This document shows positions 2,512-49,426 of a stretch of DNA of 64,000 nt, piece after piece. The translations under genes and the position numbers were made by a program. Position 1 is the first letter of the stretch, and every line of letters begins with the position of its first letter. The stretch spans positions 24,739 through 88,738 of the forward strand of contig JAURGK010000007.1 of NCBI GenBank assembly GCA_030833845.1, in the 5' to 3' direction. The notes under the pieces were generated by a model. That model ran no database searches. It was not told where the DNA came from and was given only the letters and a program-made list of their open reading frames with translations. This DNA is from Crocinitomicaceae bacterium (GTDB taxonomy: Bacteria > Bacteroidota > Bacteroidia > Flavobacteriales_D > Crocinitomicaceae).

Positions 2512-5500
2512 ATGATTCATCCCTATAATTCACTTCTTGATCAGATAAATGCTTTCATACGAAAGTACTATCTCAATATGATTTTGAAGGGTGTAATTTT
2601 ATTCACCGTATTTTTTTGTCTTGCCTTCCTACTTACCTCAACACTAGCTTTTGTATGGTTATTCCCTATATGGGTGCGGGCAATTTTGTTTTTTGGTTTC
2701 ATTGTACTGCAAAGTTCTTTATTTATTCACTACATCGGTATTCCAATAAGTCGATTAATGGCATACGGCAAACGTATTTCAAACATTCAAGCGGCAGAAA
2801 TTATAGGTTCGTTTTTTCCTGAAATTGCTGATAAACTAAAAAATACCTTACAATTAAACAATGCTCGAGAAGCAAACCTGGGTTCATTAGATTTGATTGA
2901 AGCTAGTATCGCTCAAAAATCAAGTCAACTAAATAGAATTTCCTTTACAGATGCTATTCAATTTAAGCAACAAAAGCAATACTTGAAATACCTCATACCT
3001 GTATTGTTAGGTTTTGTAGCTTTAGCATTATGGATGCCGCAAATTTTTACTCAAGGTACGACCAGAATTATTCAATACAATACAAATCTTAAAGAACCTA
3101 ATCCATACCTTTTTAAGTTTATTGGATTTTCAGATCAATATGAAGAAGGAGCTAGTCCAAAGATAGAAGTTCAAGTCTTGCCAGCGCCTGGATTTAGTAC
3201 CATTCCTAAACAAGTATATATTGTTTCAAAGCAAGGAAAGTTTCTTATGAAACAGAAAAAACGTAATGTTTTTCTCTATCAATTTCCGTCACTCAATGAA
3301 AGCACGTCGTTTTATCTTACCACCAATGAGTTCAATAGCTCGACAAAAAAAATAAATATAACAGGCAAAGCGGTCTTAGGTAAATTAAAAGCGCATTGTT
3401 ATTTTCCAAAATATTTAAACAAAAAGGATTGCATTTATAATCAAGTAAATGATCTCAATATTCCTGAAGGTACTGTTGTCAAATGGGAGCTTGCAGCAAA
3501 GAATACCAGTAAGCTTAGTGTGGTGTGGAACAATAAGCACCTTCGATTAAATCCTAATTATTGTGAATTCAAAAATGAATATACATCTAGTGTCAATCAA
3601 AAAATCATACTAACCAATCGATTTAATCTTAAAAAAGATACGATTCTCTCAGTAGTAAATGTAATTAAGGATGCACATCCAATTATTCAAGTCGAAGAAA
3701 ATCAAGACTCAATCAATCCAGCAAGGAAGTATTTTCAAGGTCAAGTCTCAGATGATTATGGGTTGAGTAAATTGAAGTTTGTTTATAATATAGAAGCGCC
3801 AAATGGTGTGAATCGCACACAACAACTAGAAGTAGAGCCGGTTTCTGGTACTCTTAAAAAATTTGATTTTGCTGTTGACTTCAGTCGCGAGAAACTCCAA
3901 TTAAATGATGTAATTACTTATTATTTTATTGTTTATGATAACGATGGTGTGAACGGTCATAAATGTACAAAAAGCAGTATTTATACCTATGAACTACCGA
4001 GTTTAGAAGAGTTAAATATTCAACGTAGAGAGGAGCAAGATAAGCAAATAAAAAACCTTGAGGATGTATTTGAAAAAACTCAACAATTTAATAAAGATGT
4101 ACAGCAATTAAAGAAAGAGAGCTTACAATCAAAATCATCTAATTGGAACAAATTAAATAAGGTAGAGCAATTACAGCAACAACAGCAAGAATTACAACAA
4201 CAAATTCAAGAAAATATTGATGAGTTAAAAGAAAGTACAAATCAAAAAAATCAATTAAGTCCGATAGACCAAGAATTATTAGAAAAACAGGCGTTGCTAG
4301 AGGAATTACTTAAAGAAGTAATGGATGATGAATTGAAATCATTACTTGATCAGCTTGAAGAATTATTAAAAGATCAAAACAAGGAGCAGTTAAAAGATAA
4401 AATCAATGAGTTAGAAATATCTACCCAAGATATGAATAAACAACTCGATAGAAGTTTAGAATTATTAAAGAAAATGCAAGTCAATGAGCGAATTGATGAC
4501 ATAGAAAAAGAACTTAATTCCTTAGCAAAAGAACAGGATGATTTATCAAAAAATTTAGAAAATTTAAGCAAGGAAGACTTACTTAAAAAACAAACTGAAC
4601 TCAATGAAAAATTTGAGAAACTAAAAAACGAACTCAGCGAACTACAGGAGTTAAACAAAGAACTAATGCATCCTTTAGATTTAGAGGGTTTAGATGAACT
4701 ACAAGATCAAATTAGCGATGATTTGAATGGGGCGAAAGAATCGATAAACGAAGGAAAAAACAAAAAAGCAGGTGAAAAACAAAAATCTGCAAGCGATGGA
4801 ATGAAATCTTTGGCTGCGCAATTAGACGCCAAACAAAGCAAATCCAACAAACAACAACAAGAAGAAGACATGGATAGTCTTCGGGCGGTTTTGGATGCAT
4901 TAATCACCCTAAGTATTGATCAAGAAACCAATCAAAAGCAATTTGTTAAGGTAAGTACGAAAGATCCTTATTACAAGAAACTAGGAAGAAGACAACAACG
5001 TATTGTCGATGACACAAAAATTATTAAAGACAGTTTGCTTGCGCTAGCAAAAAGACAGCCAAAAATTGCCACTTTTATTGATGGAGAGTTAGCTCTTATT
5101 GAATCTCACCAAAAATTAGCGATAGAGGCAATTGATGATCACCAAAAGAAAGAGCTAGAGAAACACCAACAAAAAGTAATGACCTCCTATAATAATTTAG
5201 CCTTATTATTAAATGAAGCCTTGCAATCCATGCAGCAACAAATGAACGCAGAGATGCAAGGAAATGGTAGTTGTGATAACCCAGGTAAAGGGCGCCCTAA
5301 ATCTGGTCAATCGATGTCTTCACAAGACATGAAAGAAATGCTAAAAAAGCAACTTGAACAAATGCAAAAAGGGGCCAACCCAGGAGGAAACAAACCAGGT
5401 GAAAAACCGGGTAATACTCCTGGTAAAGATGGTAAGCCGGGTCAAGGTTTGCCGGGGTTAGGAACTAAGGAATTGGCGCGTATGGCTGCCGAACAAACGG

Positions 5501-5877
5501 CAATAAGACAAAGGCTGGAGCAACTAAAGCAAGAACTAAATAAGGAAGGTAAAGGGTTAGGAAACCAACTCAACCCGCTGCTCAAAGAATTGGAGGAACA
5601 GGAAAAAGAGTTGTTACAAAAAAGAGTCAATCCACAAACCATACAAAGGCAAAAAGAAATACTAACGCGATTATTAGAAAGTGAAAAAGCCTTGATGCAA
5701 AGAGGTTATGAAGAAAAGCGTGAATCAAATAGCGGAAAAGACATAGAAAAAGGTAACCAAATAAGATTTGAATCGTACAAAAAGTCGAAATGGAACGAAA
5801 TTGAACAGATCAAGGCTTTAGACCCCGCTCTACAACTCTATTATAAGCAAAGGGCCGACAGCTATCTGAATCAATGA
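2512..5877 (+). CDS. DUF4175-type membrane-anchored coiled-coil protein
   Basis: 1121 residues. Two membrane helices lie near residues 23-66 and one near 161-178. A periplasm-like beta-rich region of about 330 residues follows. From about residue 500 to 930 the protein is almost continuous charged, Gln-rich coiled coil (runs such as QLQQQQQELQQQIQ). After this comes a Gly/Pro/Lys-rich, collagen-like stretch near residue 970 (PGEKPGNTPGKDGKPGQG) and a final helical segment. Length and layout match the DUF4175 proteins of Bacteroidota; their function is unknown to me. It heads the run with the RsbW-like ATPase, ybeY and mnmG. It is probably leaderless: its promoter ends four bases before the ATG. 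Confidence 0.75.
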   Translation: MIHPYNSLLDQINAFIRKYYLNMILKGVILFTVFFCLAFLLTSTLAFVWLFPIWVRAILFFGFIVLQSSLFIHYIGIPISRLMAYGKRISNIQAAEIIGSFFPEIADKLKNTLQLNNAREANLGSLDLIEASIAQKSSQLNRISFTDAIQFKQQKQYLKYLIPVLLGFVALALWMPQIFTQGTTRIIQYNTNLKEPNPYLFKFIGFSDQYEEGASPKIEVQVLPAPGFSTIPKQVYIVSKQGKFLMKQKKRNVFLYQFPSLNESTSFYLTTNEFNSSTKKINITGKAVLGKLKAHCYFPKYLNKKDCIYNQVNDLNIPEGTVVKWELAAKNTSKLSVVWNNKHLRLNPNYCEFKNEYTSSVNQKIILTNRFNLKKDTILSVVNVIKDAHPIIQVEENQDSINPARKYFQGQVSDDYGLSKLKFVYNIEAPNGVNRTQQLEVEPVSGTLKKFDFAVDFSREKLQLNDVITYYFIVYDNDGVNGHKCTKSSIYTYELPSLEELNIQRREEQDKQIKNLEDVFEKTQQFNKDVQQLKKESLQSKSSNWNKLNKVEQLQQQQQELQQQIQENIDELKESTNQKNQLSPIDQELLEKQALLEELLKEVMDDELKSLLDQLEELLKDQNKEQLKDKINELEISTQDMNKQLDRSLELLKKMQVNERIDDIEKELNSLAKEQDDLSKNLENLSKEDLLKKQTELNEKFEKLKNELSELQELNKELMHPLDLEGLDELQDQISDDLNGAKESINEGKNKKAGEKQKSASDGMKSLAAQLDAKQSKSNKQQQEEDMDSLRAVLDALITLSIDQETNQKQFVKVSTKDPYYKKLGRRQQRIVDDTKIIKDSLLALAKRQPKIATFIDGELALIESHQKLAIEAIDDHQKKELEKHQQKVMTSYNNLALLLNEALQSMQQQMNAEMQGNGSCDNPGKGRPKSGQSMSSQDMKEMLKKQLEQMQKGANPGGNKPGEKPGNTPGKDGKPGQGLPGLGTKELARMAAEQTAIRQRLEQLKQELNKEGKGLGNQLNPLLKELEEQEKELLQKRVNPQTIQRQKEILTRLLESEKALMQRGYEEKRESNSGKDIEKGNQIRFESYKKSKWNEIEQIKALDPALQLYYKQRADSYLNQ

Positions 5878-6309: not shown

Positions 6310-6743
6310 CTTCTGTAGTTAATTTAGGCACAAATTTGCCCAACTTTCTAAAAAAGAACGACCTCAAAAGATTTGCTAAGGAAATTTGTCTGAATGAAGG
6401 TAAGCGTTTAGGTGACTTAAGCTACGTCTTTACCAATGATGACTATTTGCTTGAAGTAAATCAGCAGTTTTTACAGCACGATTATTACACAGATGTAATT
6501 ACCTTTGATTATTCAATAGAAGGCGTTGTGTCTGGTGACGTAATGATTTCTTTAGATCGTGTGATGGATAACGCGCAAGCCTTGAATGTATCTTTCGAAC
6601 AGGAGTTTTTTAGGGTTTGTTTTCATGGCTTATTACATTTGTGTGGTTATAAAGATAAGTCTCCAGCCGAGGGGTTGTTGATGAGATCAAAGGAAAACCA
6701 ATATTTGGCGTTGTATGTTTCACGTGAAACAAAAAACGCATAA
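6306..6743 (+). CDS. ybeY: endoribonuclease YbeY (rRNA maturation factor)
   Basis: 145 residues. YbeY is a zinc-dependent single-strand RNA endonuclease used in 16S rRNA 3'-end maturation and ribosome quality control. The hallmark motif H-G-x-L-H-L-x-G-x-x-D appears as HGLLHLCGYKD, close to the C-terminus, with the expected upstream DVITFDY segment. The start overlaps the previous stop (ATGA). The last codons (VSRET) are encoded by an exact parS site, so the tail of the protein is shaped by a chromosome-segregation sequence. mnmG follows 31 bases downstream. Confidence 0.95.
   Translation: MTSVVNLGTNLPNFLKKNDLKRFAKEICLNEGKRLGDLSYVFTNDDYLLEVNQQFLQHDYYTDVITFDYSIEGVVSGDVMISLDRVMDNAQALNVSFEQEFFRVCFHGLLHLCGYKDKSPAEGLLMRSKENQYLALYVSRETKNA
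6716..6731. other. parS site 1 (ParB/Spo0J binding site), inside the end of ybeY
   Basis: TGTTTCACGTGAAACA is an exact 16-bp match to the widely conserved bacterial parS palindrome bound by ParB. It lies in the last codons of ybeY. It matters because parS marks the origin-proximal part of the chromosome. Confidence 0.9.
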
Positions 6744-6749
6744 CCTCAT

Positions 6750-6765
6750 TGTTTCACGTGAAACA
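6750..6765. other. parS site 2, directly upstream of mnmG
   Basis: A second exact 16-bp copy of TGTTTCACGTGAAACA, beginning 34 bp after the first and ending nine bases before the mnmG start codon. Two perfect copies this close are far beyond chance and give strong support for a ParB loading site. Confidence 0.92.
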
Positions 6766-6774
6766 GAATAAAAA

Positions 6775-8646
6775 ATGTTAGCAAAGTACGATGTAATTGT
6801 TGTTGGAGCAGGACACGCGGGCTGCGAGGCCGCAAATGCCGCGGCTAAAATGGGCAGCAGGGTTTTGCTTGTTACTATGAACATGAACACAATTGCACAA
6901 ATGAGTTGCAACCCAGCGATGGGGGGTGTTGCTAAAGGACAAATAGTTAGGGAAATAGACGCCCTTGGTGGTGGCTCTGGGATTGTGAGCGATAAGAGCG
7001 CAATACAGTTTCGAATGCTTAATTTATCGAAAGGCCCCGCAATGTGGTCTCCGAGAACACAGAATGATCGCGTGCTGTTTTCATTGGAGTGGCGGTATTT
7101 ATTGGAAAAAAACCCCAATGTTGATTTTTGGCAAGACATGTGTATAGGCATAATTGTAGAGAACAATTGTGTAGTAGGAGTGGAGCTAGGAATGGGAACT
7201 AAAGTGTTTGCAACCACTGTGGTCTTAACAAACGGCACTTTTTTAAACGGACTTATTCACCTAGGTGAAAAGCAATTTGGAGGAGGAAGGGCCGGAGAAA
7301 AGGCAGCTACCGGCCTTACAGAAAGCTTGGTTCAGCACGGCTTTATTGCCGGCCGCATGAAAACAGGAACCCCCCCAAGGGTAGACGGCCGCAGCCTGAA
7401 TTATGCTTTAATGGAGGCGCAGCAAGGCGACCAAAACCCATCAAAGTTTAGTTATTCCGATACTGCGCCTTTAACCAAACAACTCGCCTGTCATATAACT
7501 TATACAAATGAGCACACCCATGATTTATTGCGAACGGGTTTCGACAGATCGCCAATGTTTAATGGGGCCATTAAAAGTACAGGGCCTAGGTATTGTCCAA
7601 GTATTGAAGATAAAATTTCTCGTTTTGCCGACAGAGAGCGCCATCAAATTTTTGTAGAGCCAGAGGGTTGGAACACCGTAGAGATTTATGTAAATGGTTT
7701 CAGCACCTCTTTGCCAGAAGAAGTACAATACGCCGCAATGAAAACTATTCCTGGCTTTGAAAATGTAAAAATGTTCCGCCCTGGCTATGCAATTGAGTAT
7801 GATTATTTTCCCCCTACTCAATTGAAACACACCTTGGAAACCAAATTGGTTGAAAATCTTTTCTTTGCGGGCCAAATCAATGGCACCACAGGATACGAGG
7901 AAGCGGCTTGTCAGGGTTTAATGGCGGGCATCAACGCGCACCAAAAAACCCACAACAAAGATCCTTTTGTTTTGTCTAGAAGCGATGCATATATTGGTGT
8001 TTTGATAGATGATTTAATAACCAAAGGCACCAATGAACCATACCGCATGTTTACAAGCCGTGCTGAATTTCGCATCTTGTTAAGACAAGACAATGCCGAC
8101 GAAAGACTAACACACTTAGGTTATCAACTTGGTTTGGCTGATGATACAGCACTTCAAAAAGTTGAGAAAAAAACCCAACTTACTGAAGCGCTTAAGCAAT
8201 CCCTAAGACAAATAGGTATTACCCCTGCCGAGGCCAATCGCGTGCTTCAAACAAAAGGATCTTCAGAGATTACCCAACAAGTCAAGGCCAGCACAATTCT
8301 TACTCGCCCCCATATTGCCCTTGATGATTTAATGATTATGAGCGATAAGGTGAAAGAAGCGGTTAAGCAAATTGAAAGCCAAAACCCGCTTGCTGTAGAA
8401 CAAGCAGAGATACTATTGAAATACGAGGGTTACATTGAGCGCGAACAAGAACAGGTTGATAAACTTCAACGACTAGAGGCGCTCGTGCTCTCGCCAACAA
8501 TCGACTACTCAGAAATTAAAAATCTAAGCATAGAGTCTAAAGAAAAGCTAAATAAGATCAAGCCCGCAACCTTAGGTCAGGCAGCTAGGGTATCAGGGGT
8601 TTCGCCTAGTGACATTTCAGTGCTTTTAGTTCATTTGGGTCGCTAA
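6775..8646 (+). CDS. mnmG: tRNA uridine-5-carboxymethylaminomethyl modification enzyme MnmG (GidA)
   Basis: 623 residues, the usual length. With MnmE it installs the carboxymethylaminomethyl group on wobble U34 of several tRNAs, using FAD. The N-terminal FAD-binding Rossmann motif [12 protein letters not shown], the family motif [13 protein letters not shown] and the [12 protein letters not shown] signature are all present. The C-terminal helical domain that contacts MnmE/tRNA is complete ([18 protein letters not shown]). mnmG is often near the chromosome origin in bacteria, and two parS sites sit just upstream. I see no promoter box in the 31-base gap, so it is probably transcribed from upstream. 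Confidence 0.97.
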
Positions 8647-40586: not shown

Positions 40587-42890
40587 TTATTCAACAATAA
40601 TATCATCAAAAAGTTCAAATGCAATCTTGTGTGTTCCACATAAAATTTCAAAAGTACCTTTTTCCGCTCGCCATTTGCCATCGGCACTTATGCGTTTGAG
40701 GGTGTTTGCATCAAAACTAAATTCAAGTGTCTTGTTTTCTCCCGGACGCAGAGAAACCTTGTAAAAATCAATCAATCTTTTGTTTTCTGGAGTGGTACTG
40801 GCATATAAATCACTCAAATAAATGGGCACAACCATTTTTATATGAGTGTTGTTAGGGTTGCTTACATTCACTTCAATGTCAAAAGTCCCTTTGTTTTCGT
40901 CTTTGTGGGCAAATCTGACCCCATTGATCATACCCATAGCATAGGATAGCCCAAAACCGAAATCCCATTGTGGATTGTATGCATTGAACTGTCCAGATTT
41001 TGCTCTAGCAACACTACCGGGGTGGTCATAAAATTCTATCACCCCATCGTATCGAGGATAGGTGTAAGGCAATCTACCACTAAAATCTGCATCTCCAGAA
41101 AGTAAAAGAGCCAATGCATCACCGCCAAAGTCTCCGGGTAAATATGCCTGAATAATTGCGTCGCAGAGTGGTTCAATGTCATTGATTATTCTCGGCCTTG
41201 CTTCTAATAATACCAAAACAACCTTCTTATTTGCCGACTTAGCTAAGCGCACTAACTCCTTTTGTTTTTCATCGAGCTGAAGACTATGAATATCACCAGG
41301 TTTTTCTGTGGATGGCAACTCTCCTAAGCAGAGCACGACAACGTCACTTTTCTTAATAGCCTTTTGGTAAGCCTTTAAGTTGTCGAAGCGAGAGGCTTCA
41401 AAATCGTTCTCCATGAAGAGCTCCACTCCTTTTTGATAATCGACCATGCCGGGCGTAGGAAAGAGACGTTGTACAGCGCGGTAAATGGTTTCTTCCCGAG
41501 AATTGAAATTGGTATCTAAGCCCTGCCATGTGTGCGTCCAGGCGCCATTGAGCATATTGAGATTATCTGCCCCTGGGCCCGCAATTAAAATGTGCTGCTT
41601 TGCGTTTAATGGCAATACACCACCTTCATTTTTTAGCAAGGTGATTGATTCCAGTGCGGCATTTCTGGCTATTGATTTAAATGCGTTACTTCCAAATTTT
41701 GTGTATGAGTCCATGTCTGGCATCGGATTTTGGAAAAGCCCAAGCTTATTCTTAACATAAAGAATGCGGCGCACTGCATCGTTGAGGCGCTCCATGGAGA
41801 TTTTACCATCCTGTACTGCTTGAATCATGTCTTGACAGTAGGTTTTGTATTGCGGATTGGAAGGCACCATACTCATATCTACTCCGGCATTAAAGGCCTG
41901 AATCGCTGCTTCGGATAGTGAAGCGGCAGTATGATGCACGGTATGGAGCATAATAAAATCTTCCCAATCAGAGACTACAAAACCTTTGAAGCCCCAATCT
42001 TTTTTAAGCGTTTGGGTAAGTAGTTGGTAATTGGCATGGCCCGGTATGCCATTAACTACACCAGAATTGATCATTAGTGTCAGCGCCCCTTGTTCAACAG
42101 CGGCTTTGAATGTAGGGAGGTACAATTCTTGCAAGTATTTCTCAGGAATGAAAGCAGGTGTGCGGTCACGGCCTGAAAAACTTGCACTATAACCTACAAA
42201 GTGTTTGAGACACGCGGCAACGTGGAATTGGTCTACGTCGCCCTTCGGCCCTTGATAGCCTTCAACAAGTGCAACACCCATTTTAGTAGCTAAAACTGGA
42301 TCTTCACCTAGGGTTTCGAAGTGTCTTGACCAAAGTGGTTGACGACCAAGATCAAGCACCGGTGAAAAATTCCAAGGAATACCAGACGCTCTGCATTCAT
42401 AGGCCGTTACTTCGCCCATTTGCTTGGCAAATTCAGGATTCCATGTTGCTGCTAGTCCAATTTCTTGGGGGAATAAAGTACCACCAACGGTATAGTTCAC
42501 CCCGTGTATGGCATCTATGCCATAAAGCAATGGGATATTTTGTTCGTGTTTGAGGTATGGTGCATGAATATCCGACATCACAGATTTCCACTCTTCAAGT
42601 TTTAAAGTGTGCCAGCCCACGTTCAGCACCGAACCAACGTGATAAACCTCTAGTGCCTCTTTAAGTTTGGCTTCGTCAATTTGCTCTGGTATAAGCGCTT
42701 GTCCTTTTTGGTCCGTCTTGTGAATTGCGTCAAGAGTTATTTGGCAAGTTTGACCCACCTTTTCTTCAATTGTCATATTGGCAATGAGCGCCTCGATGTC
42801 ATTTTCAGTAGGATGGGTAAAATACAATTTATCAATATCGCTAGCGCTAAAAAGCAAAGCAACTAATAAAGAGAATGCAATAAATTTCAT
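40587..42890 (-). CDS. GH3 beta-glucosidase, exported
   Basis: 767 residues with a signal peptide (MKFIAFSLLVALLFSASD). The N-terminal TIM barrel carries the catalytic nucleophile in GFVVSDWEDF, with ACLKHFVGYSASFSGRDRTP and NFSPVLDLGRQPLWSRHFETLGEDP. The second domain (GDIHSLQLDEKQKELV, RLPYTYPRYDG) and the C-terminal fibronectin III-like domain are complete. It would release glucose from beta-glucan oligosaccharides made by the GH16 enzyme. It is the last gene of the susC-led operon. Confidence 0.94.
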   Translation of the reverse strand: MKFIAFSLLVALLFSASDIDKLYFTHPTENDIEALIANMTIEEKVGQTCQITLDAIHKTDQKGQALIPEQIDEAKLKEALEVYHVGSVLNVGWHTLKLEEWKSVMSDIHAPYLKHEQNIPLLYGIDAIHGVNYTVGGTLFPQEIGLAATWNPEFAKQMGEVTAYECRASGIPWNFSPVLDLGRQPLWSRHFETLGEDPVLATKMGVALVEGYQGPKGDVDQFHVAACLKHFVGYSASFSGRDRTPAFIPEKYLQELYLPTFKAAVEQGALTLMINSGVVNGIPGHANYQLLTQTLKKDWGFKGFVVSDWEDFIMLHTVHHTAASLSEAAIQAFNAGVDMSMVPSNPQYKTYCQDMIQAVQDGKISMERLNDAVRRILYVKNKLGLFQNPMPDMDSYTKFGSNAFKSIARNAALESITLLKNEGGVLPLNAKQHILIAGPGADNLNMLNGAWTHTWQGLDTNFNSREETIYRAVQRLFPTPGMVDYQKGVELFMENDFEASRFDNLKAYQKAIKKSDVVVLCLGELPSTEKPGDIHSLQLDEKQKELVRLAKSANKKVVLVLLEARPRIINDIEPLCDAIIQAYLPGDFGGDALALLLSGDADFSGRLPYTYPRYDGVIEFYDHPGSVARAKSGQFNAYNPQWDFGFGLSYAMGMINGVRFAHKDENKGTFDIEVNVSNPNNTHIKMVVPIYLSDLYASTTPENKRLIDFYKVSLRPGENKTLEFSFDANTLKRISADGKWRAEKGTFEILCGTHKIAFELFDDIIVE

Positions 42891-42899
42891 GGGGTATTA

Positions 42900-43985
42900 T
42901 TATTGAAATACGCGTACGTAATCGACAAACATTTTTTGTGGGAAGCTTGTACTGGCATCCGGAGATCCTGGCCAATTACCCCCAACGGCAACATTGAGAA
43001 TGATAAAAAACTTTTCCCGAAATTCAGACAATTCTGCTGGGCTTGTATCAATAGAATGATACTCAACATCGTCTAAAAGCCAATGAATGGAGTTGGCATC
43101 CCAGATGATAGAAAAGACATGGAATTCATCTGCAAACTTACCGGAGCTAAGAGACTTGCTACCACCAAACTGCGCATGAGACCCGGCGTTGCTCCAGTGA
43201 ACAGTACCGTGAATGGTTCTGTCATTGGCACCAGCGCCGCCAATTAATTCCATGATGTCAATTTCACCACATTCTGGCCAACCGACTGAAGTAATATTGT
43301 CGCCAAGCATCCAAATAGCAGGCCATAGCCCTTGCCCATAGGGTAGTGCAGCACGAACATCAATACGACCATATTTCCATGATTTGATACCTTGGGTTTT
43401 AATTCGGCTCGAGGTATAGTTAGATGTATTGAAAGTTTCGTTTTTTGCTGTAATAGTTAATAAGCCATCCGACACTACAGCGTTGTCTTGCTTGTAATAT
43501 TGTAATTCGTTATTTCCCCAACCCCAATTGCCTGTTCCAATATCGTAGGTCCAGTCTGAGGAAAGGCTTGCGCCATTGAATTCATCGTGCCAAACAAGTG
43601 TCATGTTGGGATAAGACAAGGGACTTATAAATCCAGAGCTTGGTGCGCCTGTATTTCCTGAACTTATTTCAATTACAACCTCTTCTGTTTTCTCAATGAA
43701 GGAAGTCTGAAGGGTGTGTGCTCGTGTACGAATAGTGTAGGTGCCAGAAGAGTTAAATACATGCGTTGCCTCGCCATCTTGTGTTTCAACGGTAATGCTA
43801 TCGTTGTTGTCAAAGAAAGTTATGGTATAGAAATTTACACTGTCGGCACTTGCTTGTACATGGACTTCGCCATTGGTAATAGTCAGTTGCGTTTGTAAAT
43901 TACTTGGCAGCCCGGGTGTTTTAGGCTCGTCTGGATCACAACTAAATAATGATAAGCTGAGGAATATTAGTGTTAAGAACTTCAT
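42900..43985 (-). CDS. GH16 endo-beta-glucanase (laminarinase-like) lipoprotein
   Basis: 361 residues. Lipoprotein signal with SCDPDEP after the hydrophobic core; residues about 25-120 are an Ig-like domain, and the rest is the GH16 jelly-roll. Catalytic motif GEIDIMELIG (E-x-D-x-x-E) with WPAIWMLG, TIHGTVHWSN, FHVFSIIWD and FIILNVAVGGNWPG. These are typical of beta-1,3-glucan-cleaving GH16 enzymes; agarases and carrageenases differ at these sites, but the exact specificity is inferred. Surface anchoring fits first attack on the polymer. Confidence 0.9.
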   Translation of the reverse strand: MKFLTLIFLSLSLFSCDPDEPKTPGLPSNLQTQLTITNGEVHVQASADSVNFYTITFFDNNDSITVETQDGEATHVFNSSGTYTIRTRAHTLQTSFIEKTEEVVIEISSGNTGAPSSGFISPLSYPNMTLVWHDEFNGASLSSDWTYDIGTGNWGWGNNELQYYKQDNAVVSDGLLTITAKNETFNTSNYTSSRIKTQGIKSWKYGRIDVRAALPYGQGLWPAIWMLGDNITSVGWPECGEIDIMELIGGAGANDRTIHGTVHWSNAGSHAQFGGSKSLSSGKFADEFHVFSIIWDANSIHWLLDDVEYHSIDTSPAELSEFREKFFIILNVAVGGNWPGSPDASTSFPQKMFVDYVRVFQ

Positions 43986-43995
43986 TTTTTAGAAT

Positions 43996-44847
43996 TTATT
44001 GGGTCTTGAGTTTTAAATACCACTTAAGACCGCCTTCGTGGTGTCCGTATTGTAAATGCAAAGTAGAATCAGTGGCTGACAAAATTCGGTATACACGTGG
44101 GCCGGTGTAAAAACCCAGAAAGGCATTGCCCGAGATGGTTATAGTCGGGTCTCCGTCTTCTGTGAGCAACCAGCTTTCGTTCATTTGGTTATCAAATGGA
44201 GCAGTAAAGTCGCCTAAGTTTTGGTAAGAGCCAGGAAAAGAAGCGGCAAGAGAATTGTGTAGATAAACGTCTCCGTTGGTGATCATATCGAATTTAAATC
44301 CATTCAAATGGAACACATATTGGTCATTATACAATCCACATCCTGGTTTTTCGTTCGGGCCTGCTGCCCACCATTCTGGAGTTGGGCCCAACGCGCTTTC
44401 TGGGTCTGGGCCCACACCCATGTGGCCAGAAGCGGCAGAGTCAACGACCCAAACCTTGAACCCGGGGCCGCTGATGCCTCCGGTCAGAATAGTGTAGTAA
44501 GGGTTGTTGAGAAGGCCAAAGTCGTCATTGGCAATCGTTACTTGCTGGCTAGAACTTCTGCTTCCGCCCTTTCCAAAAACGGTTAATTTAATGGTGTAGG
44601 TACCTGCATAAGGGTAAGACGCCGAAACATTGGCCCCTTGAGCCTTTGACCCATTTCCAAAGTCCCAAACACATTGAATATTTGGATTGTTGGCACTTAA
44701 TTCTATAATATTTTCGTTGGCTGCAGATACAGTCATCGTAAATTCAGCATCGGCAGCTGAAGGCGCCGGGCCAAGAGTTGGCTCATATTTATTACATGCA
44801 ACAAGTGCAAGACCAATGCTAAGAATGCTAAGCAAAATTGTTTTCAT
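43996..44847 (-). CDS. PKD-domain surface glycan-binding lipoprotein
   Basis: 283 residues from ATG 44847 (MKTILLSILSIGLALVAC); the track start is 14 codons too early and overlaps susD. After the lipid-bearing cysteine comes a PKD domain (IQCVWDFGNGSKAQGANVSASYPYAGTY) and then a region with many Trp, Gly and Pro residues (PTPEWWAAGPNEKPGCG) that could stack on sugars. Such proteins occur as the third surface component behind SusC/SusD in marine laminarin loci. No catalytic residues are seen. Confidence 0.8.
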   Translation of the reverse strand: MKTILLSILSIGLALVACNKYEPTLGPAPSAADAEFTMTVSAANENIIELSANNPNIQCVWDFGNGSKAQGANVSASYPYAGTYTIKLTVFGKGGSRSSSQQVTIANDDFGLLNNPYYTILTGGISGPGFKVWVVDSAASGHMGVGPDPESALGPTPEWWAAGPNEKPGCGLYNDQYVFHLNGFKFDMITNGDVYLHNSLAASFPGSYQNLGDFTAPFDNQMNESWLLTEDGDPTITISGNAFLGFYTGPRVYRILSATDSTLHLQYGHHEGGLKWYLKLKTQ

Positions 44848-44864
44848 GGTTTTGGTTTTAGTGA

Positions 44865-46325
44865 TTAATAACCAGGGTTTTGTGTCCAATTACCCCCTGC
44901 AAGGTCAATCTCTACTTGTGGAATAGGAAATAATTCATGTTTGCCTACAACAAATCCAGGGATATATTGTGCGGCTTGGCCAGTGCGAACCAGGTCAAAA
45001 AACCGCAAGCCTTCTCCGGACAACTCCATTCGGCGCTCATTGTAGACTTTCTGAATATTATTGATAGATGCTCCAGGGACACCTGCGCGTGAACGCACCT
45101 GATTGACAAGTTGGGTAGCGCGTGATGCATTGCCAATCTGGTAATTAGCTTCTGCAGCCATCAGTAGAACGTCGGCATATCGAAGCACTCTGTAATTAAC
45201 CGGGCTAGTAAGGTCATTGTCTGGCAAGCCAATTTCACCTTGACGCTTGATGTATTTGTTGTTGTAATATCCTGTATGGCCTCCCGCTCCTATTGCATAG
45301 GTGATTGATGCTGCGTTTGGTTGAGAAGCAATAAAGGCATCTATGTCCAATACGGTAGCATCTCGGCGCACATCGATAGGGGAGAACGCGGCGTAAAGCT
45401 CCTGAGTAGGAAGGTTATAGGAGTTTCCATCTCCGTAAACTGGGCCGGTATACTGACGAATGCCTTGGAAACCAACCGCGGCGTTGCCCTCAAGACAGAT
45501 CAAACAGCCGTAGCTTCCGCCTTCAAGTCCTGTATATTCGATATCAAAGATAGTTTCTGGATTGCCTTCGGCAGCCACACTAAATAGTTGCGTATAGTCT
45601 TGGTAAAGGCTGTATTGCCCAGAAGCGATGACTTCTTCTAGAATTTCAGCCGCTTGGGTAAATTTGTTTTGATATAAATACACCTTGCCAAGCAAAGACT
45701 TAGCAGCGCCTTGTGTGGCACGCCCTTTTTGAGCTGCAATCGGATTAAGCACAGCAGCAGCAGCGCTTAAATCAGCCTCGATTTGGGCATATACTTCTTC
45801 TTTTGGTGATCGAGGAATGGTGCGTGCTTCTTCAATTCCAATGCGCTTATCTAAAATGAGCGGAACGTCGCCAAAGAATTTGACAAGCTCAAAATAATAA
45901 TAGGCACGAAGGAATTTGGCTTCTGCAATGATGTGTGCTTTTCCCGGAAAATCAATATTGTCTTGATGTTCAAGGATATAGTTTGCTCGGGTGATTCCCG
46001 TATAATTCCAACGAAACACACTGCGCAATTCTGCATTGACACCACCGTGGGTCATGTTGTCAATGTCGTGTAGACCTTTAGAATCATTGACGCTTTCTCC
46101 TCCGGCAATAGCGTTGTCTGAGGCAATTTCACCAATCCAAAGTGTAAGAAAGGAACCTTGAAGTAAGTCATAGGCACCAACAAGGGCGCGCTCGAAATCT
46201 TCGGGGGTTTGAAAGAAATTCTCTGCATCTTGTGCATATGGCGGATCTACAGAGAGAAATTTTTCACATGAAGGCAAAGCAAGAATGCCTACAAAAGCGA
46301 TTAAGGTATAAAGTAGTTTTTTCAT
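44865..46325 (-). CDS. susD: SusD/RagB-family nutrient-binding outer membrane lipoprotein
   Basis: 486 residues. Lipoprotein signal (LIAFVGILALPSC), then SVDPPYAQDAENFFQTPEDFERALVGAYDLLQ, the usual SusD opening. TPR-like helices follow (AEAKFLRAYYYFELVKFFGDVPLI), and the C-terminus has VLLMAAEANYQIG and YNERRMELSGEGLRFFDLVRTG, all strong family marks. SusD closes over SusC as a lid that captures oligosaccharides. It begins 11 bases after susC. Confidence 0.96.
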   Translation of the reverse strand: MKKLLYTLIAFVGILALPSCEKFLSVDPPYAQDAENFFQTPEDFERALVGAYDLLQGSFLTLWIGEIASDNAIAGGESVNDSKGLHDIDNMTHGGVNAELRSVFRWNYTGITRANYILEHQDNIDFPGKAHIIAEAKFLRAYYYFELVKFFGDVPLILDKRIGIEEARTIPRSPKEEVYAQIEADLSAAAAVLNPIAAQKGRATQGAAKSLLGKVYLYQNKFTQAAEILEEVIASGQYSLYQDYTQLFSVAAEGNPETIFDIEYTGLEGGSYGCLICLEGNAAVGFQGIRQYTGPVYGDGNSYNLPTQELYAAFSPIDVRRDATVLDIDAFIASQPNAASITYAIGAGGHTGYYNNKYIKRQGEIGLPDNDLTSPVNYRVLRYADVLLMAAEANYQIGNASRATQLVNQVRSRAGVPGASINNIQKVYNERRMELSGEGLRFFDLVRTGQAAQYIPGFVVGKHELFPIPQVEIDLAGGNWTQNPGY

Positions 46326-46336
46326 GGCTTTGTTAC

Positions 46337-49300
46337 TTAAAATTTGATTTGAATACCGCTCATTAATGAACGCGCTTGTGGGTACATACCATAATCTACC
46401 CCTGCTGACAATACATTTGATGCGCCTAGATCAGGATCGAAGCCCATGTAGCGGGTCAGGGTGATGAGATTGTTAGTAGCTACATAAATACGTAATGATT
46501 CGATATTTATTTTTCGCAATGCACTAGCTGGCAGTGTATAACCAAATTGAAGGTTACGCAAACGCACAAATGAGCCGTCCTCGACGTAATAATCAGAAAA
46601 TAGATTATTGTTGGTTGGTCCGGTGGTGAGGCGTGGGTGCTCATTGGTAGATCCTGGGCCGGTCCAACGGTCTATGACATAAGCCAATTGATTGGCATAG
46701 GGTTGCTGGCGCTCGTAGTTGCGAATGATTTCTTGGCCAAGTGCAGCATAAACATTACCTGAGAGGTCAAATCCATGGAGTCTGAAATTAAAAGCAAAGC
46801 CCATTGTAAAGTCAGGTATAGCTGAACCAAGGTATGTTTTGTCTGAGTCATCAGAAAAATTGATTTTACCGTCGCCATTCTGATCAACAAAAATCAAATC
46901 TCCGGGCTGCGCGCCTTCTTGAACTACTGCAGCATTGTCTATTTCTTCTTGTGTTTGGAACACTCCGGCTGTTTGATAACCAAAGAAATAACCAATTTCA
47001 TAACCTTGTTCGAAGCGCGTTGCTACATCACCACCCACACTGAAAGCAGCTCCGGGAATATACTGAATGCCCTCGGGTACACTTACAACTTTATTATTAA
47101 TGGTGGTAAAGTTAAAATTGAGGTTAGTTTGTAATAATTTTTTGCGATCGGATTGATAAGCCACCTCAAATTCCCAACCTTTGTTAGATACGTCACCGGC
47201 ATTGATAATTGGCGGGTAACCCCCAGGGCCATAAGAACCCAATAATGCCGAAACATCTGGCTGGAAGAGTAAATCATTGGTGTTTTTGATGAAGTAGTTC
47301 GTTGTGAAATTGAGCACTTTTAACCATGTAAGGTCTACTCCCACATTGAGTTGACGTGTAGTTTCCCATTTGAGATCTGGGTTGGCAGGTCGGCCAATAG
47401 CAACACCTTGTGTGATGAGGTCATTGAAAACATATACCCCTTCTCCGTTAAGTAGGGCGCGGTAGGCAAAGTTTGGGATTTGGTCGTTACCAGAAACCCC
47501 ATAACTCAAACGAAGTTTAAGAAAATCAATGGTTTTGCTCTTAAAAAAGTCTTCTTCTGAAAGCAACCACCCACCTGAAATTGTTGGGAAAATACCCCAA
47601 CGGCTATTGGGGCCAAATTTACTCGAGCCGTCTCTACGAAGAATACCCGAAACCAAGTATTTTTCTTTGTAGGCATATTCTGCACGGGCAAACGAAGACA
47701 ATAAACGCTCTTTAAATTCCCATGAATTCACATTGTTTAAGAATCCTCCTTGAGCGGTATTGGCAGAAATGTCTGCATAGTCCAAAGAGTTATTTGGGAT
47801 ACCAAATGCCACCCCATTCAATGATTGACCTTTGCGTTCAAAGACAGATGCACCAAGAGTTCCTTTGATTTTATGGTCTTCATTCCAAGTTTTCTCATAA
47901 TTCAAAAAGGACTCAAAAGTAAGGTCTAAAAAGCTAGATCTTTCTTCGTAAACGGCCGCCCCTCTTTCGATGAAAACGCTGTCTGCGATTTCTACTTGTG
48001 GAGATTCTAGAGCGGAATTGGCAGCCGTGTTGGCGTATTTGCCATCTCCGTACCACACAAGTGGCGAAAAGACTTTACTGTCAACGTTGGCGTAATTGTA
48101 ATTGAATCGATTAGTGAAAGAAAGATTTTCATTGAATTCATAAATAAACTCCTCTTTACCAACAAATTTGTTTGCAGTGCTCCAATTGTACTGATTCATC
48201 ATTTGGGCAATTGGATTGATGATATCGCTTACCTCTTCCATGTATGAGAAGGTGCCAGGGCTGCTGTAAATGGGTTCATTCGGGAAGGCATTGATTGTAT
48301 TGTATAATACTGAGCCAATGCCATTTTCAGGCAAGGTGCTGCGCATATCAGAAGAGAAGAGCAATACAGAATTGAGTTTGAGTTTTTCTGACATATCTGT
48401 AGCAAAATTCAAACGCGCATTGTAGCGCCCAAAGTTGGCTTTGTCTGCACCAACAATACCTTCTTGGTTAAAATACCCAAGGCCAATAGAATACCTTGTG
48501 TTGAGCGTTCCGCCGTTCAATGATAAATTGTGGCTTTGTACAGGCGCATTGCTAAAAACAGAATCTTGCCAGTTGGTGCCGGTGCCTAGATTGGTATTGG
48601 CAAATGGCATGCTTTGGCCTCCAAAAGCAAAGGCTTCATTTTTAATTACAGCATATTCCTCGGCAGTAAGCAAGTCGAGTTTACGAGCTGTTTGTTGAAT
48701 GCCGTAATACCCGTTATATTCGAGACTAGGCTTGCGGTTAATGGCGCCATTTTTAGTTTCTACAATAATTACACCATTGGCAGCGCGCACACCGTAAATA
48801 CCCGCAGTGGCATCCTTAAGTACGTTGATTGACTTGATATCTGATGGATTGAGCGCGTTGAGCCCCTCAGAGTCGTATACTACGCCATCTACCAAAATCA
48901 AGGGGTCGTTGTCACCGAAGGTGGAAAGTCCGCGAATGCGAATGTTTGAAGAGCCGCCAGGCGAACCCGAATTGCTTGAAATAGTAACACCCGAAACTTG
49001 CCCTTGTAAGGCCTGGTCCATACGGGTCATATTCATCTTTTCCAAATCTTCACCCTTTACTTTTGAAGTGGCGCCGGTGAGTTCTTTGGATTTGGCAGTG
49101 CCGTAACCCACAACTACCACATCTTTGGTATCTTGAGACAATTCTTGCAGGGTTACACTAACTACGGACTTCCCTTCTAGAGGAAATTCGAGTTTTTCAT
49201 AGCCCATCGCACTAAAAATGAGCACCGCAGAGTCTAAATTGCCAACTTGAATTTCAAATTGACCCTTACCGTCAGACAAAAAAAGTTTTTTGGTGTTTTT

Positions 49301-49426
49301 CACAGTGATTTTTACATAAGGAACAGCTTCCGCACGTTCATTTAGTATAGTACCACTGACAGACTGTCCATAGACTTGCGAGACGCCTATTAATAAAAAT
49401 AGGGTCATGACGAGTTTTTTGATCAT
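46337..49426 (-). CDS. susC: SusC/RagA-family TonB-dependent oligosaccharide transporter
   Basis: 1029 residues. Signal peptide (LFLLIGVSQVYGQ), a carboxypeptidase-D regulatory-like domain (VSGTILNERAEAVPYVKITV), the plug domain (MDQALQGQVSGVTISSNSGSPGGSSNIRIRG and DPLILVDGV) and a large barrel ending in the family C-terminus. Import of glucan oligosaccharides across the outer membrane is inferred from the linked GH16 and GH3 genes. It is the first gene of the operon susC-susD-PKD-GH16-GH3. Its promoter overlaps a perfect copy of the candidate operator. Confidence 0.96.
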   Translation of the reverse strand: MIKKLVMTLFLLIGVSQVYGQSVSGTILNERAEAVPYVKITVKNTKKLFLSDGKGQFEIQVGNLDSAVLIFSAMGYEKLEFPLEGKSVVSVTLQELSQDTKDVVVVGYGTAKSKELTGATSKVKGEDLEKMNMTRMDQALQGQVSGVTISSNSGSPGGSSNIRIRGLSTFGDNDPLILVDGVVYDSEGLNALNPSDIKSINVLKDATAGIYGVRAANGVIIVETKNGAINRKPSLEYNGYYGIQQTARKLDLLTAEEYAVIKNEAFAFGGQSMPFANTNLGTGTNWQDSVFSNAPVQSHNLSLNGGTLNTRYSIGLGYFNQEGIVGADKANFGRYNARLNFATDMSEKLKLNSVLLFSSDMRSTLPENGIGSVLYNTINAFPNEPIYSSPGTFSYMEEVSDIINPIAQMMNQYNWSTANKFVGKEEFIYEFNENLSFTNRFNYNYANVDSKVFSPLVWYGDGKYANTAANSALESPQVEIADSVFIERGAAVYEERSSFLDLTFESFLNYEKTWNEDHKIKGTLGASVFERKGQSLNGVAFGIPNNSLDYADISANTAQGGFLNNVNSWEFKERLLSSFARAEYAYKEKYLVSGILRRDGSSKFGPNSRWGIFPTISGGWLLSEEDFFKSKTIDFLKLRLSYGVSGNDQIPNFAYRALLNGEGVYVFNDLITQGVAIGRPANPDLKWETTRQLNVGVDLTWLKVLNFTTNYFIKNTNDLLFQPDVSALLGSYGPGGYPPIINAGDVSNKGWEFEVAYQSDRKKLLQTNLNFNFTTINNKVVSVPEGIQYIPGAAFSVGGDVATRFEQGYEIGYFFGYQTAGVFQTQEEIDNAAVVQEGAQPGDLIFVDQNGDGKINFSDDSDKTYLGSAIPDFTMGFAFNFRLHGFDLSGNVYAALGQEIIRNYERQQPYANQLAYVIDRWTGPGSTNEHPRLTTGPTNNNLFSDYYVEDGSFVRLRNLQFGYTLPASALRKINIESLRIYVATNNLITLTRYMGFDPDLGASNVLSAGVDYGMYPQARSLMSGIQIKF

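Follow-up and report, generated by a model that had tools for sequence, protein, structure and literature searches.

The junction between ybeY and mnmG in this Crocinitomicaceae genome carries two exact copies of the 16-bp palindrome TGTTTCACGTGAAACA, which very likely serve a ParABS partition system as its chromosomal parS sites. The element would belong to a known kind, chromosomal parS, present here in duplicate. The pair is very probably the single centromere of the chromosome and its predicted ParB loading site, because only two sites are found, they are accompanied by one ParA-ParB pair, and this ParB has the residues that specify parS. Moreover, as judged by sequence comparison across relatives, the gene that parS accompanies in most of the phylum is mnmG and not ybeY. 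The features concerned are listed in Table 1, with positions given in the window, i.e. the whole stretch of 64,000 nucleotides that was analysed.

Table 1. Coordinates of the parS copies, the genes that flank them and other features of the window.
Feature	Position	Strand	Remarks
1121-aa coiled-coil-like protein	2512..5877		Q/K/E-rich; hydrophobic N-terminal region; no Pfam match; gene directly upstream of the HATPase-ybeY-mnmG genes
ybeY, rRNA maturation endoribonuclease YbeY, 145 aa	6306..6743	+	PF02130 E 5.6e-25; TIGR00043 above cut-off
parS copy 1 (TGTTTCACGTGAAACA)	6716..6731	.	exact match; within ybeY 3' end
ybeY codons GTT TCA CGT GAA ACA (VSRET) from parS copy 1, then KNA-stop	6717..6731	+	
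parS copy 2 (TGTTTCACGTGAAACA)	6750..6765	.	exact match; in ybeY-mnmG spacer, ends 9 nt before mnmG ATG
mnmG (gidA), tRNA uridine-34 modification enzyme	6775..8646	+	PF01134 E 7.9e-161; TIGR00136 above cut-off
Polysaccharide utilisation cluster	40587..49426	-	SusC-like TonB receptor, SusD-like protein and GH3 glycosidase close together

The original prediction had described two mismatch-free 16-mers, one forming the final codons of ybeY and the other ending nine bases before the start of mnmG, and had held that such a pair could not be due to chance. Both copies were found and the coordinates agree. They are 34 bp apart from start to start, with 18 bp in between, and YbeY in the window accordingly ends in ...LYVSRETKNA-stop. 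The whole-genome search for the 16-mer that had been proposed as a check returned exactly two copies in the 2.14-Mb assembly, both at ybeY-mnmG, with no even scatter round the chromosome. About 0.0008 exact copies would be expected in the entire assembly from its base composition, against the two observed. No third parS site with up to two mismatches was found anywhere in the 2.14-Mb assembly; this being a metagenome-assembled genome (MAG) of 44 contigs and 94.7% completeness, one more site may lie in the part of the chromosome that was not assembled. A similar pair is present in four genus mates (G041, G473, G485 and G512). Another member of the genus (G535) and one of the family (G433) have no site within one mismatch of the TTC/GAA palindrome, and more strongly changed variants are frequent in the family.

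The parA and parB genes, on whose presence the prediction depended, are both found in the genome. ParB is encoded once, adjoining ParA, on a contig (C22) other than that of the window, and yet another contig (C12) carries dnaA. The protein is of the chromosomal type, with ParB_N, HTH_ParB and ParB_C domains. It was aligned to Caulobacter ParB (6t1f) with the numbering set so that the GERR motif falls at 101-104, which reproduces the residues that PMC7383237 calls Q162, K171, S172, R173, T179, A184, G201 and R204. The CTP-binding GERR motif is kept, and Caulobacter R173 and G201 are present as R168 and G196; these two residues are absolutely conserved in ParB, altered in Noc and parS-specifying (Jalal et al. 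2020, PMC7383237). Two properties of the protein might be taken to mean that the sites serve a nucleoid-occlusion (Noc-like) system and not ParABS. The NCBIfam Noc model is its best-scoring match, albeit below cut-off (236 vs 315 bits), and residue 179 of ParB (L003:985-1899), equivalent to the permissive position 184 of Caulobacter ParB, is the K that Noc has, with R173 and G201 kept. That reading is nevertheless almost certainly wrong, as the positions of the Noc residues Q173, K179, K184 and R201 hold R, H, K and G, the base-contacting specificity residues R173 and G201 are those of ParB, RXXG variants are parS-specific (PMC7383237), ParB adjoins ParA, and the DNA word is parS and not the Noc-binding sequence.

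ScpA was not found in the 94.7% complete assembly, nor was a full-length SMC frame, the SMC_N matches in the genome sitting in frames shorter than an SMC. It is therefore doubtful that parS has its usual role in loading condensin here, and in this lineage something else may have taken the place of SMC loading, or the step may be missing. Bacteroides has likewise been reported to be without recognisable condensin (PMC10197239).

The form of the sites themselves indicates what reads them. The profile over 448 sites reads nGTTYCACGTGRAACn: the CACGTG core hardly varies, and the arms are independently T or C (A or G); 166 of the 448 sites (37%) are changed on one side only at positions 5/12. Judging from the aligned sites, this half-site profile is the trace left by a dimeric DNA-binding protein. 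The alternative is that the two copies act in the ybeY-mnmG transcript, where they would pair as a stem ahead of the mnmG start codon and so adjust translation or decay. In the window both are perfect inverted repeats, and a 17-bp RNA stem is predicted (-23.2 kcal/mol, z -5.7); in addition, copy-to-copy pairing at one variable position reaches 88/126 against a shuffle mean of 83.7, a difference that relatedness can explain. Two copies of any palindrome pair by construction, however, and the one-sided changes abolish the single hairpin in RNA predictions rather than compensate for it. Furthermore, the central ACGT, which would be the unpaired loop of a single hairpin, is nearly invariant, the same one-sided variant occurs in both copies at 9 loci against 5 mirror pairs, and many families have one copy on each side of mnmG. 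Since a one-sided change breaks the hairpin and an RNA loop needs no invariant ACGT, the palindromes are better understood as a protein site, and a primary function in RNA is very unlikely indeed. The predicted 17-bp stem may still have a side effect on the mRNA. A scan for sigma-70 promoters round ybeY-mnmG gave nothing above chance.

A centromere sequence had also been proposed to shape the C-terminus of YbeY, and the comparison of ybeY 3' ends suggested for this purpose bears the proposal out: the DNA motif is constant while frame and peptide differ, VSRET being only one of three readings. Among the 74 loci in which ybeY could be placed, parS in the 3' end is read as V[SP]RET in 44 (phase 2), as FHVK in 7 (phase 1) and as GFT followed by parS's own TGA stop in 5 (phase 0), and is absent from the end of the gene in 18. 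At least seven frame changes are needed on the MnmG tree among the loci with parS in the ybeY end. The V[SP]RET tails that are complete, 41 in number, are without exception encoded by GTT-YCA-CGT-GAA-AC, i.e. their synonymous positions are frozen; besides Y, only the last base of these codons varies, and the same base is loose in parS generally. Selection for the VSRET peptide as a feature of YbeY, with the palindrome as a side effect, would account for V[SP]RET being the commonest tail. It would not account for the FHVK, GFT-stop and parS-less tails in the same group or for the frozen synonymous positions, and the same word occurs elsewhere in ybeY and outside genes, one of the window's two identical 16-mers being non-coding; this explanation can be given virtually no credence. 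Because ybeY accommodates the palindrome in whichever frame it falls, selection probably acts on the DNA word, the tail peptide being a by-product. At nine loci (L027, L053, L057, L069, L073, L074, L077, L079 and L084) parS lies deep inside ybeY in differing places, read as VSRET at two of these places and as FHVEL at one, as if independently acquired.

The linkage to mnmG was followed in several sets of relatives. The first is a MnmG scan of 80 named loci, almost all of them from Crocinitomicaceae/Flavobacteriales MAGs and some plainly mislabelled. At least one parS-like site is found around mnmG in 77 of the 80, and at least two in 73; in most of them 5-11 nt separate the end of the last upstream site from the mnmG ATG, and at the other end of the gene an extra site is often found on or after the stop codon. 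Seven MAGs titled Sphingomonadales or Chryseobacterium gleum (L005, L009, L037, L043, L049, L066 and L071) bear labels that look wrong, their MnmG being 69-84% identical to the Crocinitomicaceae-type protein of the window. The second set comprises 130 genomes sampled evenly from Bacteroidia and blind to parS, in which ~2 kb flanking mnmG was searched for the TTC/GAA or TCC/GGA palindrome, with the reversed motif as control. Sites with at most one mismatch are present in 106 of the 130 genomes and 48 of the 57 families (control 0), and allowing two mismatches raises the count to 121 (control 1); the remaining 9 have no parS-like site within ~2 kb of mnmG. Outside the class, 30 genomes representing 28 families were examined and parS lies by mnmG in 26 of them (control 0), a fraction that is not unbiased because these genomes were picked for carrying parS somewhere. 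No ParA or ParB match was found in the 1.5-kb mnmG flanks of these 30 genomes.

The position of the site relative to mnmG varies: it may be hundreds of bases upstream, in ybeY, in mnmG or after the stop codon, and many families have it downstream only or carry one copy upstream and one downstream. Seven genomes (G304, G340, G314, G378, G358, G394 and G417) have a parS-like site within the coding sequence of mnmG, at about +1475 to +1487 and in constant codon phase. The distance from copy to copy is 24 to 49 bp in most loci and up to 446 bp, with no strictly conserved spacing, and helical phasing of two ParB dimers is therefore unsupported. Placement 5-11 nt before the ATG in most relatives would suit the blocking of expression, and ParB does affect parS-adjacent genes in Pseudomonas aeruginosa (PMC7022226). 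The palindromes could on these grounds be mainly an operator, at which ParB or another regulator, bound 9 bp before the start, controls mnmG or ybeY-mnmG, partition being secondary or absent. An operator would hardly be expected to move as freely relative to its gene as these sites do; the genome has no further copies hinting at a regulon, and its only ParB is of the parS-specific type. We regard this explanation as very unlikely and retain the chromosomal centromere as the function of the pair.

It had further been predicted that the window is origin-proximal, and here the outcome is divided: kinship supports the claim well, and the window's own contig only weakly. Origins were located in five complete or near-complete relatives, by sampling 20-kb stretches and computing GC skew at third codon positions per gene strand (GC3 skew). 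The switch from negative to positive skew falls at ~1.760 Mb in G479, with parS at 1.746 Mb, and at ~2.741 Mb in G427, with parS at 2.721 Mb. It lies between 0.120 and 0.137 Mb in G498 (parS at 0.148 Mb) and between 1.454 and 1.460 Mb in G362 (mnmG at 1.444 Mb). G029, where the switch lies between 0.62 and 1.25 Mb and values are near zero round parS at 0.876 Mb, is consistent with these. On the contig of the window coding-strand bias dominates the skew, and a strand-corrected GC3-skew breakpoint lies 5-19 kb from parS (permutation p ~0.03). A search for clusters of DnaA boxes gave no convincing oriC on this contig or near parS in G479, G427 and G498, so that the origin calls are drawn from skew. 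Among gut bacteria, Bacteroidota included, the origin is marked by clusters of parS and often not by dnaA (PMC10197239).

Neither dnaA nor parAB accompanies parS in the relatives in which its position was checked. The dnaA-parS distance is ~1.75 Mb in G479 and ~1.65 Mb in G427, and the parB-parS distance is 2.3 and 1.9 Mb, respectively. In these two complete Crocinitomicaceae-type genomes dnaA lies at 1.2 kb (G479) and 1.3 kb (G427), ~1.7 Mb from the skew origin at ~1.76 and ~2.74 Mb, and parB at 4.08 and 0.81 Mb, which places parAB near the skew terminus; their dnaA-rotated records thus do not begin at the origin. Elsewhere parB and mnmG are separated by 0.3 Mb (G002), 0.67 Mb (G362), 0.73 Mb (G007), 0.80 Mb (G029), 1.66 Mb (G417) and 2.2 Mb (G033), and the overall range from parAB to parS/mnmG is 0.3-2.3 Mb.

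By analogy with the known ParABS family, a ParB dimer would bind each palindrome, switch with CTP into a sliding clamp and spread across the ybeY-mnmG region, and ParA would separate the origins once they have been copied. The pair, near the replication origin, is apparently the only strong predicted ParB loading place of the chromosome, and one of its copies has settled into the ybeY 3' end in the Crocinitomicaceae-type lineage. A wider reading is offered tentatively and with considerable doubt. The Bacteroidota centromere would be anchored to mnmG independently of parAB and dnaA, lying just before the mnmG start, inside the gene or on its stop codon, and would spill into the end of ybeY and so write the YbeY tail; ParB occupancy could then couple origin segregation to mnmG/ybeY expression.

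These observations are relevant in several respects. The parS sites around mnmG offer a simple, testable origin marker in a phylum whose dnaA genes often lie a long way from the origin, and the centromere is separated from the genes of its binding proteins. All three reading frames of one fixed 16-bp DNA word are in use where a conserved gene ends, which amounts to a natural experiment, and the question is raised of the role of ParB in a lineage without recognisable SMC-ScpAB. A full-text literature search found no description of parS-mnmG/gidA linkage in Bacteroidota, nor of a frame-hopping parS as the tail of YbeY; the principal parS survey, Livny et al. 2007, was outside this search, and priority is accordingly uncertain.

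The system has a 16-bp palindrome, a ParA-ParB pair, parS-specific ParB residues and clustering near the origin in common with the chromosomal parS of Bacillus subtilis, Caulobacter and Pseudomonas. It differs from them in that parAB in the relatives lies at a distance from parS/mnmG and not beside the origin, in having apparently one double site, located by mnmG and overlapping a gene end, and in that no canonical SMC-ScpAB was found. Sites within coding regions are known in other bacteria, e.g. in spo0J of B. subtilis. The parS clusters of gut bacteria studied by Hi-C (PMC10197239) likewise lie at the GC-skew origin, where dnaA is not always present, and some of those species lack canonical condensins, which were not found here either; that study makes no mention of mnmG/gidA or of coding overlap, and its Bacteroidota are from another order. 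In Proteobacteria and Firmicutes, gidA (mnmG) and parS are both close to the origin, in a gidA-gidB-parA-parB neighbourhood. Both gidA and parA are listed among the genes normally next to the origin (PMC2768785). In the Bacteroidota genomes examined, by contrast, parAB is found elsewhere, whereas parS is still with mnmG.
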